A stretch of 47,568 bases of DNA from Bacteroidales bacterium (GTDB lineage Bacteria > Bacteroidota > Bacteroidia > Bacteroidales > VadinHA17). The position numbers and the translations under genes were made by a program. Positions 68 through 4,871 of this stretch are shown here, piece after piece. The notes under the pieces were generated by a model. The model was not told the origin of the DNA and made no database searches. It was given only the letters and a program-made list of their open reading frames with translations. The DNA lies in NCBI GenBank assembly GCA_012517605.1, contig JAAYUS010000245.1, positions 1 to 47,568 of the forward strand, in the 5' to 3' direction. Within the stretch, counting starts at the first letter, position 1. Each line of letters starts with the position of its first letter.

Positions 68-913
68 ATGACAATTGCTGTAGTAGGCATAGGACTTATA
101 GGAGGATCTCTTATGATTGATCTCCGCAAACGTGGATTTACCGATAAAATAATAGGGGTGGATTCAAATCTTCAACACCGTAATATTGCACAGTTATGCG
201 GGCTTGTTGATGAAACTGATGAACTTGAGAGCGCCGTCGACAAAAGCGACCTGATAATTTTGAGCACGCCTGTTGATGCCAACTGTGAGATGCTTCCCGG
301 AATACTTGACAGGATAAATGGTACTTCCAAAGTTGTAACTGATATGGGGTCCACAAAAGGCAGGATCGCCAGAGTGTCGGAAGGTCATCCCAACAGGGGA
401 AGATATGTTGCCCTTCATCCTATGGCAGGTACTGAATTTTCAGGGCCTCTTGCCGCTATAGGCAGGCTTTTCGACTATAAGACAGCAATCATATGCGATC
501 CCGAACTCAGCGACAAGGATGCACTGCGGCTTATTGAGAAGATGCTCGATGTTCTGAACATGCGGAAGGTTTACATGAACTCGAGCGATCATGATGTCCA
601 TGTTGCATATGTATCGCACATCTCACACATAACTTCATTCTCCCTGGCTCTCAGCGTACTTGACAAGGAACGTGAGGAACAGAATATCCTGACTCTGGCC
701 GGCGGAGGTTTTGAAAGCACAGTCCGTCTTGCCAAAAGCAACGGCGACACCTGGGCCCCGATCTTCCTTGAAAATTCGCAATACATAATTGAAGTTATGG
801 ACAACTATATTGAAAAGATGAACCTCTTCAGGAAATTGATAGCAGAAAATGACAAAGAAGGGCTAAAGGCCCTTATGGAAGAGGCAAATAAAATAAGAAA
901 GATCCTGAACTAA
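68..913 (+). CDS. tyrA: Prephenate dehydrogenase
   Basis: This gene encodes a cytosolic NAD(P)-dependent prephenate dehydrogenase of 281 residues, which oxidatively decarboxylates prephenate to 4-hydroxyphenylpyruvate in tyrosine synthesis. The N-terminus carries the Rossmann glycine motif GIGLIGGS (residues 7-14). A family-typical HPMAGTE segment lies near residue 117, and the helical C-terminal half contains SHISHITS. The length is normal for a monofunctional TyrA without an ACT domain. The start is the first ATG, giving MTIAVVGIG directly at the nucleotide-binding strand. The next gene begins 12 bases after the stop, so it is co-transcribed with the DAHP synthase/chorismate mutase and aroA. 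In related Bacteroidota a prephenate dehydratase gene often lies upstream; here that would be outside the window. Confidence 0.93.
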   Translation: MTIAVVGIGLIGGSLMIDLRKRGFTDKIIGVDSNLQHRNIAQLCGLVDETDELESAVDKSDLIILSTPVDANCEMLPGILDRINGTSKVVTDMGSTKGRIARVSEGHPNRGRYVALHPMAGTEFSGPLAAIGRLFDYKTAIICDPELSDKDALRLIEKMLDVLNMRKVYMNSSDHDVHVAYVSHISHITSFSLALSVLDKEREEQNILTLAGGGFESTVRLAKSNGDTWAPIFLENSQYIIEVMDNYIEKMNLFRKLIAENDKEGLKALMEEANKIRKILN

Positions 914-925
914 AATTCATACCCG

Positions 926-2038
926 ATGGAAACCGAATTAAAGATGACGACAGTGACTGAATGGAGAGGTTACAAAACAAGGCCTTTCCTTATTGCGGGG
1001 CCTTGCAGCGCGGAAACGGAAGAACAGGTAATGGAAACAGCCCGTCAGCTTGCCAGCATGAAGGAAGTTTGCGTATTCAGGGCAGGCATTTGGAAACCCC
1101 GTACCCGTCCGAATTCATTTGAAGGTATCGGCTCAGAAGGACTGAAATGGCTCAGACGGGTAAAACAGGAAACAGGCCTGATGGTCGGTACCGAGGTGGC
1201 AAATGAAAAGCATGTCTATGAGGCGCTCAAATACGGGATTGACATGCTCTGGATCGGGGCCAGGACATCTGTTAATCCTTTCACAGTCCAGGAGATATCA
1301 AATGCCCTCAATGGCGTTGACGTGATGGTTCTTGTGAAAAATCCGATTAACCCGGATCTCGAGCTCTGGATTGGAGCCATCGAGCGCATAGCTAAGGCAG
1401 GCATTACAAGGCTTGGCGCCATCCATCGCGGGTTCTCGGCATTTGAAAAGACCGTTTACAGAAACCAGCCAAACTGGCAGCTGCCAATCGAAATTCGCCG
1501 CCGCATCCCCGATCTTCCCATAATATGTGACCCAAGTCACATATCAGGTGCAAGGGAATACCTGTATGAGATATCCCAGAAGGCAATGGACCTGAATTTT
1601 GACGGACTCATGATCGAATCGCATATCGATCCCGACAAAGCCCTCAGTGATTCCGCCCAGCAGCTGACGCCAAATGATCTCAGGGAACTGCTCAGCAGGC
1701 TGATACTCAGAAGTCCGGTCCCCGCTGATCCGCGCCTGCTTGATATACTCGGAGAACTGAGGCAGCAGATAAATATTTACGACGATGCACTGATAGAGAT
1801 CCTTGAGAAAAGAATGAAGGTTGCAGAAACGATCGGCAAGTATAAAAAGGAAAATAATATTACTATCTTGCAGCCTACACGATGGGATGAGATCATAAAG
1901 AAAGTAATGATTTCCGGTCAGTCGAAAGGGCTCAGCAAAGAGCTTATCGACACGGTGTTCAAGGCAATTCACCAGGAATCAATTAACCACCAGATGAAAG
2001 TCATGAACATTGGTCTCGAAACCCATAACGGAAAATAA
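926..2038 (+). CDS. Bifunctional 3-deoxy-7-phosphoheptulonate synthase / chorismate mutase
   Basis: This 370-residue protein combines two steps of aromatic synthesis. Residues about 1-265 form a class I DAHP synthase of the short KDO8PS-like type, with GPCSAE at 25-30, FRAGIWKPRTRP, TEVANEKH, LVKNP, HRGF and the CDPSH metal/substrate motif. Residues about 270-360 resemble an AroQ-type chorismate mutase: a helical LRQQINIYDDALIEILEKRM segment followed by IGKYKKE. The fusion links pathway entry (PEP plus erythrose 4-phosphate) with the branch to prephenate, matching its neighbour tyrA. Fusion to chorismate mutase is known to allow feedback control of DAHP synthase by prephenate or chorismate in some bacteria; that this applies here is inference. 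An alternative start is the ATG at 944. Equivalent genes have been called aroF, aroG or pheB, so no symbol is assigned. Confidence 0.92.
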   Translation: METELKMTTVTEWRGYKTRPFLIAGPCSAETEEQVMETARQLASMKEVCVFRAGIWKPRTRPNSFEGIGSEGLKWLRRVKQETGLMVGTEVANEKHVYEALKYGIDMLWIGARTSVNPFTVQEISNALNGVDVMVLVKNPINPDLELWIGAIERIAKAGITRLGAIHRGFSAFEKTVYRNQPNWQLPIEIRRRIPDLPIICDPSHISGAREYLYEISQKAMDLNFDGLMIESHIDPDKALSDSAQQLTPNDLRELLSRLILRSPVPADPRLLDILGELRQQINIYDDALIEILEKRMKVAETIGKYKKENNITILQPTRWDEIIKKVMISGQSKGLSKELIDTVFKAIHQESINHQMKVMNIGLETHNGK

Positions 2039-2053
2039 GAATCATATCACGAA

Positions 2054-3304
2054 ATGGAAAGATCGGTAGAACCTTCATTTGTATCAGGAGAGATCATTGC
2101 ACCGCCGTCAAAAAGCATGACACAAAGGATCATTGCAGCAGCAATGATGGCCGACGGGCGCAGTACTATCCTGAATCCGTCGTACTGCGACGATTCGCTT
2201 GCAGCAATGAGCATCGCAGTCAGTCTGGGAGCAAGAGTTGAGCCCGAAGCAGTACAGATGAAGATTACCGGTTCATGGGAGCTGAAGGAAAGAAAACTGA
2301 ATTGCGGAGAATCGGGGCTGGCCATCCGAATGTTCTCTCCTGTTGCTGCCTTGTTTGACGAGGAAATAACCCTTTCAGGTGCCGGATCACTCAAAAACAG
2401 GCCTATGAATATGATAGTGGATGCTCTTGTTCAGCTCGGCGTTGAGTGCAAAAGTGACAACGGATTCCTTCCTCTCAGGATAAAGGGCCCCCTTAAAGGA
2501 GGGAAATGTGAAGTCGACGGTTCTGTAAGCTCTCAGCTGCTGACCGGACTGCTGATGGCGCTTCCGCTCGCTGAAAAAAGCTCTGAGATCAGGGTCAGCA
2601 ACCTAAAGAGCAGGCCTTACATCGATATGACACTGCAGGTTTTACGTAATTCTGGCATCATTGTGACCAATGACAGCTATGAGTTTTTCAGGATCGAAGG
2701 GATGCAGGAATACAAGCCGGGAACCTATCAGGTTGAAGGAGACTGGAGCGGCGGCGCTTTCCTTCTTGTTGCCGGAGCAATAAACGGCAACCTGAAAATA
2801 AATGGATTGAGCAACAAGAGCTCACAGAGCGATATGGCAGTACTTAAAGCCCTTATGGATGCAGGAGCAGATCTGAAAATTTCAGGAAATTCAATAGAGG
2901 TCTCCAGATCAGCACTTAAAGCCTTTGAATTCGATGCAACAGATTCACCCGACCTCTTCCCTCCCCTCGTTGCTCTTGCCTCCTATTGTAAAGGAGTTTC
3001 GTCGATAAAAGGCGTCTCAAGACTATTACATAAGGAAAGTAACAGGGCAGCTGCACTGTCGGAGGAATTCGGAAAAATGAACATAAAAACAGAGATAAGG
3101 AATGATTGCTTCCATATTACAGGAGGAAAAGTGACAGGCGCCCGGGTAAACTCCCATGAAGACCACCGGATAGCCATGGCTGCAGCAGTTGCAGCACTTG
3201 GAGCCGAAGGAACAGTATATATTAAAGACTCACACTGTGTTGCAAAATCATATCCGGGATTTTTTGACGATATAAAAAAAGCCGGAGCAATGGTTCATGA
3301 ATAA
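2054..3304 (+). CDS. aroA: 3-phosphoshikimate 1-carboxyvinyltransferase (EPSP synthase)
   Basis: This gene encodes a 416-residue EPSP synthase, which transfers the enolpyruvyl group of PEP to shikimate 3-phosphate, the sixth step of the shikimate pathway. Visible motifs are PPSKSMTQR (17-25, shikimate-3-phosphate and PEP binding), NCGESGLAIRMF in place of the usual glycine-rich LGNAGTxxR segment, SSQLLTGLLMALPL, DWSGGAFLL, DSPDLFPPLVALA with the catalytic Asp, and DHRIAMAAA near the C-terminus. It follows the DAHP synthase/chorismate mutase by 15 bases and is the last gene before the trp leader. The glycine-rich loop differs from the enterobacterial form, as is common in Bacteroidota. Confidence 0.94.
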   Translation: MERSVEPSFVSGEIIAPPSKSMTQRIIAAAMMADGRSTILNPSYCDDSLAAMSIAVSLGARVEPEAVQMKITGSWELKERKLNCGESGLAIRMFSPVAALFDEEITLSGAGSLKNRPMNMIVDALVQLGVECKSDNGFLPLRIKGPLKGGKCEVDGSVSSQLLTGLLMALPLAEKSSEIRVSNLKSRPYIDMTLQVLRNSGIIVTNDSYEFFRIEGMQEYKPGTYQVEGDWSGGAFLLVAGAINGNLKINGLSNKSSQSDMAVLKALMDAGADLKISGNSIEVSRSALKAFEFDATDSPDLFPPLVALASYCKGVSSIKGVSRLLHKESNRAAALSEEFGKMNIKTEIRNDCFHITGGKVTGARVNSHEDHRIAMAAAVAALGAEGTVYIKDSHCVAKSYPGFFDDIKKAGAMVHE

Positions 3305-3322: not shown

Positions 3323-3351
3323 TTGAAAATTCAAAATTTTATTTACTTTTG
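3323..3351 (+). promoter_or_regulatory. Candidate Bacteroidota promoter for the trp leader-trpB transcript
   Basis: TACTTTTG at 3344-3351 is an exact match to the Bacteroidota -7 element TAnnTTTG. A TTG at 3323-3325 lies 18 bases upstream as a possible -33 element. The predicted transcription start would fall at roughly 3355-3358, almost on the leader peptide ATG at 3357. A partial match, TACTTTTT at 3313-3320, is a weaker alternative. Read-through from aroA is also possible. Confidence 0.5.
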
Positions 3352-3356
3352 ACGCC

Positions 3357-3407
3357 ATGAAAACACTGAAATTATATATCTGGTCCTGGCGCAGCTCAAG
3401 AATTTAA
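3357..3407 (+). CDS. Trp leader peptide MKTLKLYIWSWRSSRI (TrpL-like)
   Basis: A 16-codon ORF runs from ATG at 3357 to TAA at 3405-3407. Codons 9 and 11 are TGG (3381-3383 and 3387-3389), giving a W-S-W core in a window where Trp is otherwise rare. It lies upstream of a Trp synthase gene and immediately before three alternative RNA stems. Codon 12 opens attenuator region 1, so a ribosome stalled at either Trp codon would cover region 1, as in classical trp attenuation. The peptide is too short for a functional protein and is read here as a sensor of charged tRNA-Trp. No clear Shine-Dalgarno sequence precedes it. Confidence 0.8.
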   Translation: MKTLKLYIWSWRSSRI

Positions 3408-3481
3408 GCTGTGAATAAGGCCGTTATATAATCTCCACGATATTACCAATAAAGGCATGCTGTTCACAGCGTGCCTTTTTT
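3390..3481 (+). promoter_or_regulatory. Ribosome-mediated tryptophan attenuator (regions 1-4)
   Basis: Four regions give competing stems. Region 1 (3390-3396) pairs with region 2 (3407-3413) over 7 bp including one G-U. Region 2 extended (3408-3417) pairs with region 3 (3461-3470) over 10 bp with one U-G. The terminator arm at 3451-3460 pairs with 3469-3478 over 10 bp with one U-G and is followed by a T run. The 2:3 antiterminator uses the terminator loop and the first bases of its 3' arm, so the two exclude each other. A ribosome stalled at the Trp codons would mask region 1, free region 2 and allow antitermination. A ribosome reaching the stop at 3405 would mask region 2 and allow termination. 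Confidence 0.83.
3451..3481 (+). terminator. Intrinsic terminator of the trp attenuator
   Basis: The stem AAAGGCATGC (3451-3460) pairs with GCGTGCCTTT (3469-3478) around an 8-base loop, with one wobble pair, and runs straight into a T tract (3476-3481). It lies 35 bases before the trpB start and not after a gene, which marks it as a regulatory rather than an end-of-operon terminator. Confidence 0.85.
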
Positions 3482-3515
3482 GTTTGCAAATCTTTAACCA
3501 CTAAATAATCAGAAC

Positions 3516-4871
3516 ATGAAAAAGACATCAAAAATTTTATTAAGCGAAAAGGAAATGCCGCGTCAATGGTATAACATCATGGCCGACATGCCTAACAAAC
3601 CAATGCCGCCTCTTCATCCGGCAACACGTGAGCCTATTGGTCCCGAAGCGCTGGCTGCTGTTTTCCCGATGGAACTTATAAAGCAGGAGGTATCAACAGA
3701 ACGCTATATTGATATCCCTGACGAAGTAATAGATCTCTACAAAATGTACAGGCCGGCCCCTCTCTTCAGGGCCATCAATATGGAGAAGGCCATTGGCACT
3801 AAAAGCAGGATATATTATAAATATGAAGGTGGCAATTACAGCGGCTCACATAAAGCAAACACCGCTATAGCCCAGGCTTATTACAATAAGCAGGAAGGGA
3901 TAAAGAGGATAACCACCGAAACCGGTGCCGGCCAGTGGGGAAGTGCATTAAGCTGGGCATGTCATCATTTTGGAATTGAACTTCTGGTCTTCATGGTTAA
4001 GGTCAGTTACCATCAGAAACCAGGGCGCAAACTCCTCATGAATTCATACAACGCCAGAGTTGTTCCGTCGCCAAGTACTATGACTGAGTCGGGCAGAAGA
4101 ATTCTTGAAAAGGATCCCGACTCACCCGGCAGCCTAGGCATAGCCATATCCGAAGCAATGGAAATTGCAGTTCAGGATCCCTATACAAAGTACTCGCTTG
4201 GAAGCGTCCTGAACCATGTAATCCTTCATCAGACGATAATAGGCCAGGAAGCCCTGCTGCAGATGGAAAAGGCAGACGATTATCCCGATGTGGTAATCGG
4301 TTGTTTCGGAGGAGGTTCAAATTTCAGCGGCATTGCGTTCCCTTTCCTTCGTGAGAAACTTGCAAATGGCAAAAATATAAGGCTGGTTGCCGTTGAGCCT
4401 GCCTCATGCCCTAAACTTACAAAAGGTAAATTCATGTACGACTTTGGCGATTCAGCAGGCATGACGCCTCTTCTTCCCATGTACACCCTGGGACATAATT
4501 TCATTCCCGAAAAGATACATGCAGGCGGATTAAGGTATCACGGTGCCGGTGTACTGGTAAGCCAGCTCCTTAAGGACGGATTTATCGAAGCCAAGGCAAA
4601 AATGCAAAGGGAATGCTTTGAAGGAGGAGTGCTGTTCGCAAGAACCGAAGGTATTCTTCCTGCACCCGAATCGACATATGCCATTGCCGGGGCGCTGGAT
4701 GAGGCAAGAAAAGCTGATATTGAAGGAGTGTCTAAAACAATACTCTTCAATCTCAGCGGTCATGGTCATTTCGACATCTCTGCCTACGAGAAATACTTTG
4801 AAGGCAACCTTCCTGATCATGAGATGACCGCTACAGAAGTTGATGCCGCAATAGCAAACAGTGAAATTTAA
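3516..4871 (+). CDS. trpB: Tryptophan synthase beta chain, TrpB2 type
   Basis: This 451-residue PLP enzyme condenses indole with serine to give tryptophan. It belongs to the longer TrpB2 (TrpB-like) group: it has an N-terminal extension with the PPLHPATREPIGPE segment, the PLP lysine in SHKANTA (Lys113), a TETGAGQWG loop, and the phosphate-binding GCFGGGSNF run. TrpB2 proteins usually occur outside the trp operon, and no trpA, trpC, trpD or trpE is adjacent here. The upstream Trp attenuator argues that it takes part in tryptophan supply in vivo and is not an unrelated serine deaminase. It is followed by a repeat element and a convergent gene, so it is a monocistronic unit. Confidence 0.93.
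   Translation: MKKTSKILLSEKEMPRQWYNIMADMPNKPMPPLHPATREPIGPEALAAVFPMELIKQEVSTERYIDIPDEVIDLYKMYRPAPLFRAINMEKAIGTKSRIYYKYEGGNYSGSHKANTAIAQAYYNKQEGIKRITTETGAGQWGSALSWACHHFGIELLVFMVKVSYHQKPGRKLLMNSYNARVVPSPSTMTESGRRILEKDPDSPGSLGIAISEAMEIAVQDPYTKYSLGSVLNHVILHQTIIGQEALLQMEKADDYPDVVIGCFGGGSNFSGIAFPFLREKLANGKNIRLVAVEPASCPKLTKGKFMYDFGDSAGMTPLLPMYTLGHNFIPEKIHAGGLRYHGAGVLVSQLLKDGFIEAKAKMQRECFEGGVLFARTEGILPAPESTYAIAGALDEARKADIEGVSKTILFNLSGHGHFDISAYEKYFEGNLPDHEMTATEVDAAIANSEI

Follow-up and report, generated by a model that had tools for sequence, protein, structure and literature searches.

A conserved tryptophan-codon leader with the anatomy of a ribosome-mediated attenuator precedes stand-alone trpB2 genes in a family of Bacteroidales

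The cellular job of TrpB2 enzymes encoded outside operons is debated, and for the lone trpB2 of P. horikoshii some other selective function has been suggested, though not identified (PMC1854888). We examined the DNA that precedes one such gene in a Bacteroidales contig of 47,568 nucleotides, the whole of which is referred to as the window. The genes concerned are the following:

68-913, forward strand, tyrA (open reading frame and family match)
926-2038, forward strand, DAHP synthase-chorismate mutase fusion (open reading frame and family match)
2054-3304, forward strand, aroA (open reading frame and family match)
3516-4871, forward strand, trpB2, encoding a stand-alone TrpB-like PLP enzyme of 451 amino acids (profile matches)

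An initial reading of this DNA, made from the sequence alone (the sequence-only reading), had assigned the last of these genes to the TrpB2 type. Profile scores support this assignment: the predicted product exceeds the cut-offs of both TrpB2 profiles (711 bits against 366 for NF009057; 627.7 bits against 518.85 for TIGR01415) and falls below that of the TrpB1 profile TIGR00263 (132.8 bits against 392.45). The same reading had noted that no other trp gene is adjacent, and indeed none adjoins trpB2, but the genes upstream are those of the aromatic pathway, and the order in which aro genes are followed by trpB2 is common to many named relatives. It is the gap between the end of aroA at 3304 and the start of trpB2 at 3516 that holds the element of interest, whose parts are listed here:

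3344-3351, forward strand, TAnnTTTG promoter -7 element TACTTTTG (sequence motif, conserved in relatives)
3357-3407, forward strand, leader open reading frame encoding MKTLKLYIWSWRSSRI, then stop (open reading frame; TG of the start codon invariant in 75 rows)
3381-3389, forward strand, Trp-Ser-Trp codons, with Trp at 3381-3383 and 3387-3389 (translation of the leader open reading frame)
3371-3432, forward strand, extended 1:2 hairpin (folding, compensatory changes)
3408-3422, forward strand, region 2, the 5' half of the antiterminator, comprising 3408-3417 and 3420-3422 (pairing, compensatory changes)
3454-3470, forward strand, region 3, the 3' half of the antiterminator, comprising 3454-3456 and 3461-3470 (pairing, compensatory changes)
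3451-3485, forward strand, intrinsic terminator and U-rich tail, with a stem of 3451-3462 and 3467-3478 (compensatory changes)

The window thus contains a short leader reading frame with clustered Trp codons, and its layout agrees with the sequence-only reading, which had described a leader of 16 codons with a Trp-Ser-Trp core, Trp codons directly before region 1 and a stop codon (3405-3407) adjoining region 2. Most of the base pairs which that reading had placed in competing stems are also right, although the stems themselves required revision. The 7-bp core of the 1:2 stem is as described (3390-3396 with 3407-3413), but the hairpin as a whole is longer because of an extension that reaches into the leader-coding stretch, made up of pairs between 3371-3378 and 3425-3432 and between the first Trp codon and 3421-3423. 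Likewise, the 10 bp of helix 2:3 (3408-3417 with 3461-3470) stand, and three further pairs that had been omitted (3420-3422 with 3454-3456) are added to them, while the terminator and its T tract are retained with a stem of 12 rather than 10 bp, a UUCA loop and a U tract. Region 3, rather than being simply the 5' arm of the terminator, consists of the loop-proximal part of that hairpin (the end of the 5' arm, the loop and the start of the 3' arm) together with 3454-3456. The fold of the 129-nt leader has a z score of -5.91, and none of 200 shuffled sequences was as stable.

We examined the occurrence of this element across the 117 genomes of the window's GTDB family, 110 of which have a TrpB match (TrpB1 included) at E<=0.001; a list made by hand gave 101 genomes with a trpB2 match, some of them partial. 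Upstream DNA was taken from 90 of these 101 genomes (11 were left out) and one was dropped to leave 89 loci; the DNA dropped, L023 and L045, is the same contig end with 63 nt upstream. Because the upstream DNA of L027 and L029 is identical, the 89 loci are not all different. A locus was counted when a leader reading frame with at least two clustered Trp codons was followed by a terminator, and 83/89 family trpB2 loci satisfied this definition compared to 0/890 dinucleotide shuffles. Together with the fold shuffles (0/200), this result rules out a chance origin. Among the 89 loci, no leader reading frame was found at L008, L010, L129, L137 or L142, and L165 has a leader reading frame but lacks the terminator. 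A model built from 59 trpB2 leaders, which we call R1, matched 87 of the 117 family genomes at E<=0.001; by our reading, 83 of these matches lie at the trpB2 place, with one more at trpE (G022) and three without placement (G004, G070 and G110). Most near relatives, whose records are titled Bacteroidales, encode a core peptide of the form Y-(I/N)-W-x-W-(R/C/H)-S, and more distant genera carry Trp runs such as YWWWWR and YWWLWQ. Among the distant named loci L074-L110, a Trp leader with terminator occurs in L080, L081, L100 and L110, and the W-containing reading frames of L084, L096 and L165 were not accepted on account of their position or an absent terminator. For trpB2 loci of other families, 3/20 passed compared to 0/100 shuffles, a proportion that is a lower bound because the automatically called start seems misplaced in several (for example L221, L226, L227 and L231). 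A general trpB2 leader across the phylum is therefore unsupported.

Several family loci depart from this pattern. L008 (G059) and L010 (G069) have lost promoter, leader and antiterminator and retain the terminator sequence, eroded in L010, in the last 60 nt before trpB2. L057, L129, L137 and L142 are family trpB2 genes without any Trp leader, and at L057, a locus that gave no aroA match, trpB2 lies directly 3' of the DAHP synthase-chorismate mutase gene.

The sequence-only reading had proposed aligning the leaders of relatives, and for this purpose we used an alignment, A1, of 75 near-family leaders with a mean column identity of 69%, in which the Trp codons are kept and all helices show compensatory changes. 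The check on sequence set by that reading, which would have failed on relatives lacking Trp codons or covariation, thus came out in its favour. Rows were chosen for the pattern TGG...TGG, so the invariance of the Trp codons in A1 is built in; among rows so selected, the last Trp codon directly adjoins region 1 in 75/75. In all 75 rows the start codon keeps its TG at the aligned position. A Bacteroidota-type TAnnTTTG box precedes the leader start in 71/75 relatives, the exceptions being L047, L133, L146 and L170, and in 63/75 it lies exactly 5 nt ahead of the start codon, as it does in the window. In B. thetaiotaomicron this motif is centred at -7 (PMC7366714), and by that spacing transcription is predicted to start at about 3354-3355, which would leave a 5' UTR of only some 2-3 nt ahead of the leader ATG. 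Short 5' ends have precedent in the phylum, with 5' UTRs of <10 nt reported at about 3.7% in B. thetaiotaomicron (PMC7366714) and leaderless mRNAs at 5.5% in F. psychrophilum (PMC9723704).

Covariation in A1 was compared with 500 shuffles, which take no account of relatedness among the 75 leaders. Helix 2:3 has compensatory changes in 7/13 pairs and 22 cells, each of these counts being reached by 0/500 shuffles. The terminator helix 3:4 has such changes in 6/12 pairs and 44 cells (reached by 30/500 and 0/500 shuffles, respectively), and the extension of the 1:2 hairpin in 9/16 pairs and 69 cells (9/500 and 0/500). Covariation in the 1:2 core, with 3/7 pairs and 14 cells, is weaker, because its pair count was matched by 186/500 shuffles even though its cell count was matched by only 1/500. 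Thus, a terminator and a mutually exclusive antiterminator both carry compensatory changes, with controls that are partly unclean: when the partners of 2:3 were slid by +1 there were 34 double-change cells compared to 22 in register, with 35% of cells paired compared to 86.7%, and a slid extension also gave 9 pairs, but at most 41 cells compared to 69. Regions 1 and 2 have changed in concert with the terminator in L052 and L132. Beyond the near relatives, 13 trpB2 leaders from other genera or families were checked for pairing of region 2 with the loop and 3' arm of the terminator, and we found complementarity at p<=0.03 in nine, weak complementarity in L161-L163 (shuffle p 0.05-0.15) and none in L081 (shuffle p 0.73), these p values being coarse because they derive from 300 mononucleotide spacer shuffles each. 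The complementarity in distant leaders is built from other letters, for example TGCTGTAACC:GGTTACAGCA, GTAAACAAC:GTTGTTTAC and GTCCGTAGCG:CGTTGCGGAC.

The place of the leader stop codon varies among the 75 relatives. In 6/75 it adjoins region 2 as in the window, in 17 the leader ends 6 nt ahead of region 2, and in 35/75 the reading frame continues across region 2 and ends at a single stop just past it. Nonetheless, the assumed footprint of a terminating ribosome covers 4 or more of the 10 nt in the region-2 core in 73/75, and the conserved trait is coverage of region 2, not the position of the stop. A separate feature of A1 is a GATA-containing stretch between region 2 and the terminator (window 3439-3442; A1 columns 101-115), often AAGATATT, which is present in 57/75 trpB2 leaders and resembled by the letters of 9/22 family trpE leaders; neither a pairing partner nor a role was found for it.

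We folded each leader with a ribosome placed on it, whose footprint (assumed to extend 15 nt upstream of the A-site codon and 12 nt downstream) was barred from pairing. For RNA made as far as the 3' end of the antiterminator, which was scored as formed at 6 or more of 8 pairs, a ribosome on either Trp codon gave the antiterminator in 74/75 leaders. By contrast, it formed in 6/75 leaders when no ribosome was present and in 1/75 with the ribosome at the stop codon (L022, with 6/8 pairs; L005 keeps 5/8). A cruder version, in which all RNA behind the front edge of the ribosome was barred, gave 74 stalled, 8 without ribosome and 0 at the stop out of 75; this version is too kind where the stop lies past region 2, and we used the footprint-only version. 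Once the RNA extends through the terminator, minimum-energy folding yields that hairpin in 75/75 leaders, both in the absence of a ribosome and when one sits at the stop, and it still wins when the ribosome is stalled on the first (68/75) or second (66/75) Trp codon, meaning that antitermination must rest on the order of folding, with the antiterminator forming first and persisting. In the transcript, the 3' half of the antiterminator is complete 8 nt ahead of the terminator stem. The position of the ribosome thus selects between the structures, and does so in the folding of incomplete transcripts only.

Conservation at 83/89 loci, covariation and ribosome-dependent folding support the classical ribosome-mediated Trp attenuation logic put forward in the sequence-only reading, and we consider it highly probable that the element is an attenuator of this type, permitting trpB2 transcription at times of low charged tRNA-Trp. 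The RNA would begin almost at the leader AUG, from the TAnnTTTG promoter. With ample Trp, the presumed cellular signal, the ribosome would pass the Trp codons and reach the stop at or near region 2, and with region 2 covered the terminator would form ahead of trpB2. With scarce Trp, the ribosome would stall on Trp-Ser-Trp and cover region 1 and the extension, and, in the folding order we infer, region 2 would capture the loop-proximal part of the terminator hairpin while that hairpin is still unfinished, so that RNA polymerase reads on. Were no ribosome present, the long 1:2 hairpin would take up region 2 and transcription would be expected to stop as well. The TrpB2 enzyme so expressed would make Trp from indole and serine, the indole presumably coming from outside the cell as salvage.

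Other explanations of the same DNA can be weighed against this attenuator. That it is a ligand-binding riboswitch or a protein-bound leader, such as a Trp or indole aptamer or a TRAP-like site, in which the short reading frame is incidental, would fit the long conserved hairpin and the unexplained GATA-containing stretch in 57/75 leaders. We nevertheless regard this reading as very unlikely, given that conservation falls on a start codon, neighbouring Trp codons and a stop near region 2, and that in other genera Trp codons persist and region-2 complementarity recurs in 9/13 leaders even as the letters differ. Moreover, the window contains no match to any Rfam family at its gathering score, which rules out a known riboswitch or T-box. 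Less likely again is that the leader works mainly in trans, by way of a terminated, nearly leaderless RNA or a peptide that acts on other genes. Such action has been reported for rnTrpL/peTrpL of S. meliloti. The rnTrpL RNA of that species begins at the AUG (PMC7298713), and the transcription start predicted here lies only 2-3 nt ahead of the AUG, yet attenuation in cis explains the conservation seen.

Least likely of all, in our estimation, is that the aro operon upstream simply ends in an intergenic terminator, with a Trp-containing reading frame ahead of it by chance. The terminator does lie downstream of aroA, and its sequence is kept without a leader in L008 and L010. Against this stand the leader with terminator at 83/89 loci compared to 0/890 shuffles, helices 2:3 and 1:2 that covary and a TAnnTTTG box ahead of the leader in 71/75 relatives, and the element is retained at trpB2 even at loci that yielded no aro gene (for example L058, L060 and L062-L068). 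This last observation also rules out that the leader belongs to the aro operon.

In E. coli trpL, Trp codons precede region 1, the stop lies near region 2, and helices 1:2, 2:3 and 3:4 compete. The leader described here shares these three features with the enterobacterial trp leader (RF00513) and differs from it in that the main partners of region 2 are the loop and 3' arm of the terminator, the reading frame passes through region 2 in 35/75 relatives and a single trpB2 lies downstream; the window scores 14.3 bits against RF00513, under the gathering score of 41. The sequence-only reading knew of no well-studied example of such logic in a Bacteroidota genome ahead of a TrpB2-type gene without adjacent trp genes, a statement that needs correcting, since a Bacteroidete tryptophan peptide leader, Bacteroid-trp, has been catalogued as Rfam RF01692 since 2010 (Weinberg et al. 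2010, PMC2864571, Table 1) and trpE regions of the family and order also carry Trp leaders. Like Bacteroid-trp, the window holds a Trp peptide leader in Bacteroidetes, with a start codon, Trp codons, a hairpin of the Trp-codon stretch with downstream sequence and then a terminator arm. The differences are its target, a stand-alone trpB2, and a start codon directly after the promoter box. Bacteroid-trp is located ahead of the F. psychrophilum trp operon (PMC6414381), and strong clues for leader-peptide attenuation of amino-acid operons have been described in that species (PMC9723704). These cases resemble ours as leader-peptide attenuation in Bacteroidota and concern other genes, with no trpB2 case stated in the excerpts of the two reports.

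Further afield, the S. meliloti trpL/rnTrpL is likewise a Trp attenuator with RNA from the leader AUG (PMC7298713), a start that is only predicted here, but it is alphaproteobacterial and controls trpE(G). The trpB motif (RF04312, PMC11109978) is also a 5' element that sometimes precedes trpB, with a terminator, but is described in that source as a riboswitch candidate of Firmicutes and Fusobacteria; the window scores 20.2 bits against a gathering score of 59, and with 0/117 family genomes matching at E<=0.001 it is ruled out as the class of our element. A putative attenuator has been placed ahead of the B. thetaiotaomicron pheA-hisHb-aroAIbeta-aroQ-tyrA operon (PMC1173090, Table 7). This is an aromatic-amino-acid operon with relatives upstream of trpB2 here, but the attenuator precedes aro genes rather than lying between aroA and trpB2, and the part of the source consulted does not state a Trp leader. 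We found no leader ahead of a stand-alone trpB2 in the literature covered, namely open-licence PMC papers. Lopatovskaya et al., whom PMC4833913 cites, reportedly carried out a wide survey of attenuation in 2010, which may include Bacteroidetes trp operons. Taken together, sequence comparison gives good support for a Trp attenuator of a known kind with an unusual target and a score under the Rfam thresholds tested. What is new here is that the target is a stand-alone trpB2 in a genome in which trpE, D, C, A and trpB1 were not found, that the start codon lies 5 nt past the promoter box and that RF01692 scores 25.3 bits against its gathering score of 49.

Profile searches of the window's genome, which took in trpE, D, C, A and trpB1, found no second TrpB or trpB1, trpA, IGPS/trpC, trpE or PF00591/trpD. 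These absences could be assembly gaps, because the genome is 94.64% complete and in 269 contigs. Among the 101 family trpB2 genomes, trpA and IGPS are both under cut-off in 57, 29 of which are at least 90% complete; two of the 57 (G061 and G087) do hold trpE, indicating that some absences are partial or due to assembly gaps. With trpE, trpD, trpC, trpA and trpB1 not found, indole would come from outside the cell, and we infer that Trp-starvation-induced indole salvage is the likely role of trpB2. For the wider proposal, in which trpB2 has been retained for inducible indole salvage, controlled by a nearly leaderless attenuator of its own, in one Bacteroidales family many of whose genomes seem to have lost Trp biosynthesis, we put the chances at about even. 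The presence of a conserved Trp-sensing leader on a stand-alone trpB2, in a genome that yielded none of five other trp genes, is regulatory evidence for Trp as the product. If the wider proposal is true, the attenuator would show that stand-alone TrpB2, whose job is still debated, serves the cell by making Trp under Trp scarcity. The leader also points to salvage and cross-feeding of indole in communities of the kinds given in the record titles, namely fen, lake sediment and digester.

Leaders of similar form precede trpE. In 20 family trpE regions, drawn from 48 family genomes with IGPS, a Trp-rich reading frame is present in 20/20 and a leader followed by a terminator in 19/20, compared to 0/100 shuffles. 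Order-wide, 21/40 trpE regions pass compared to 1/200 shuffles, with one of the 40 (L280) being a family member. At E<=0.1, R1 matches most of 22 family trpE regions and many order-wide, including L247 (E=1.4e-8) and L218 (E=4.5e-7), so the trpB2 and trpE leaders are alike in form, a likeness that may reflect either descent or convergence. At E<=0.001, RF01692 matches 4/117 family genomes, of which one passes the threshold (G087, at trpE); two of the others also lie at trpE (G061 and G089) and the last at a trpB2 leader (G052, 43.6 bits). Set against the 83/89 trpB2 loci described above, these four genomes suggest that Trp attenuation in Bacteroidota is wider than the RF01692 model, and the trpE leaders of family and order (19/20 and 21/40) likewise suggest a reach beyond it.

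Two minor observations were made at trpE loci. Near that of G017, on the other strand, lies a SAM riboswitch (RF00162, 80.3 bits, L211:995-1101, reverse strand). Upstream of trpE in G461, G595 and G570 (L244, L248 and L272, respectively), two successive Trp-rich leader reading frames are each followed by a terminator-like hairpin, an arrangement that has the appearance of tandem Trp attenuators.
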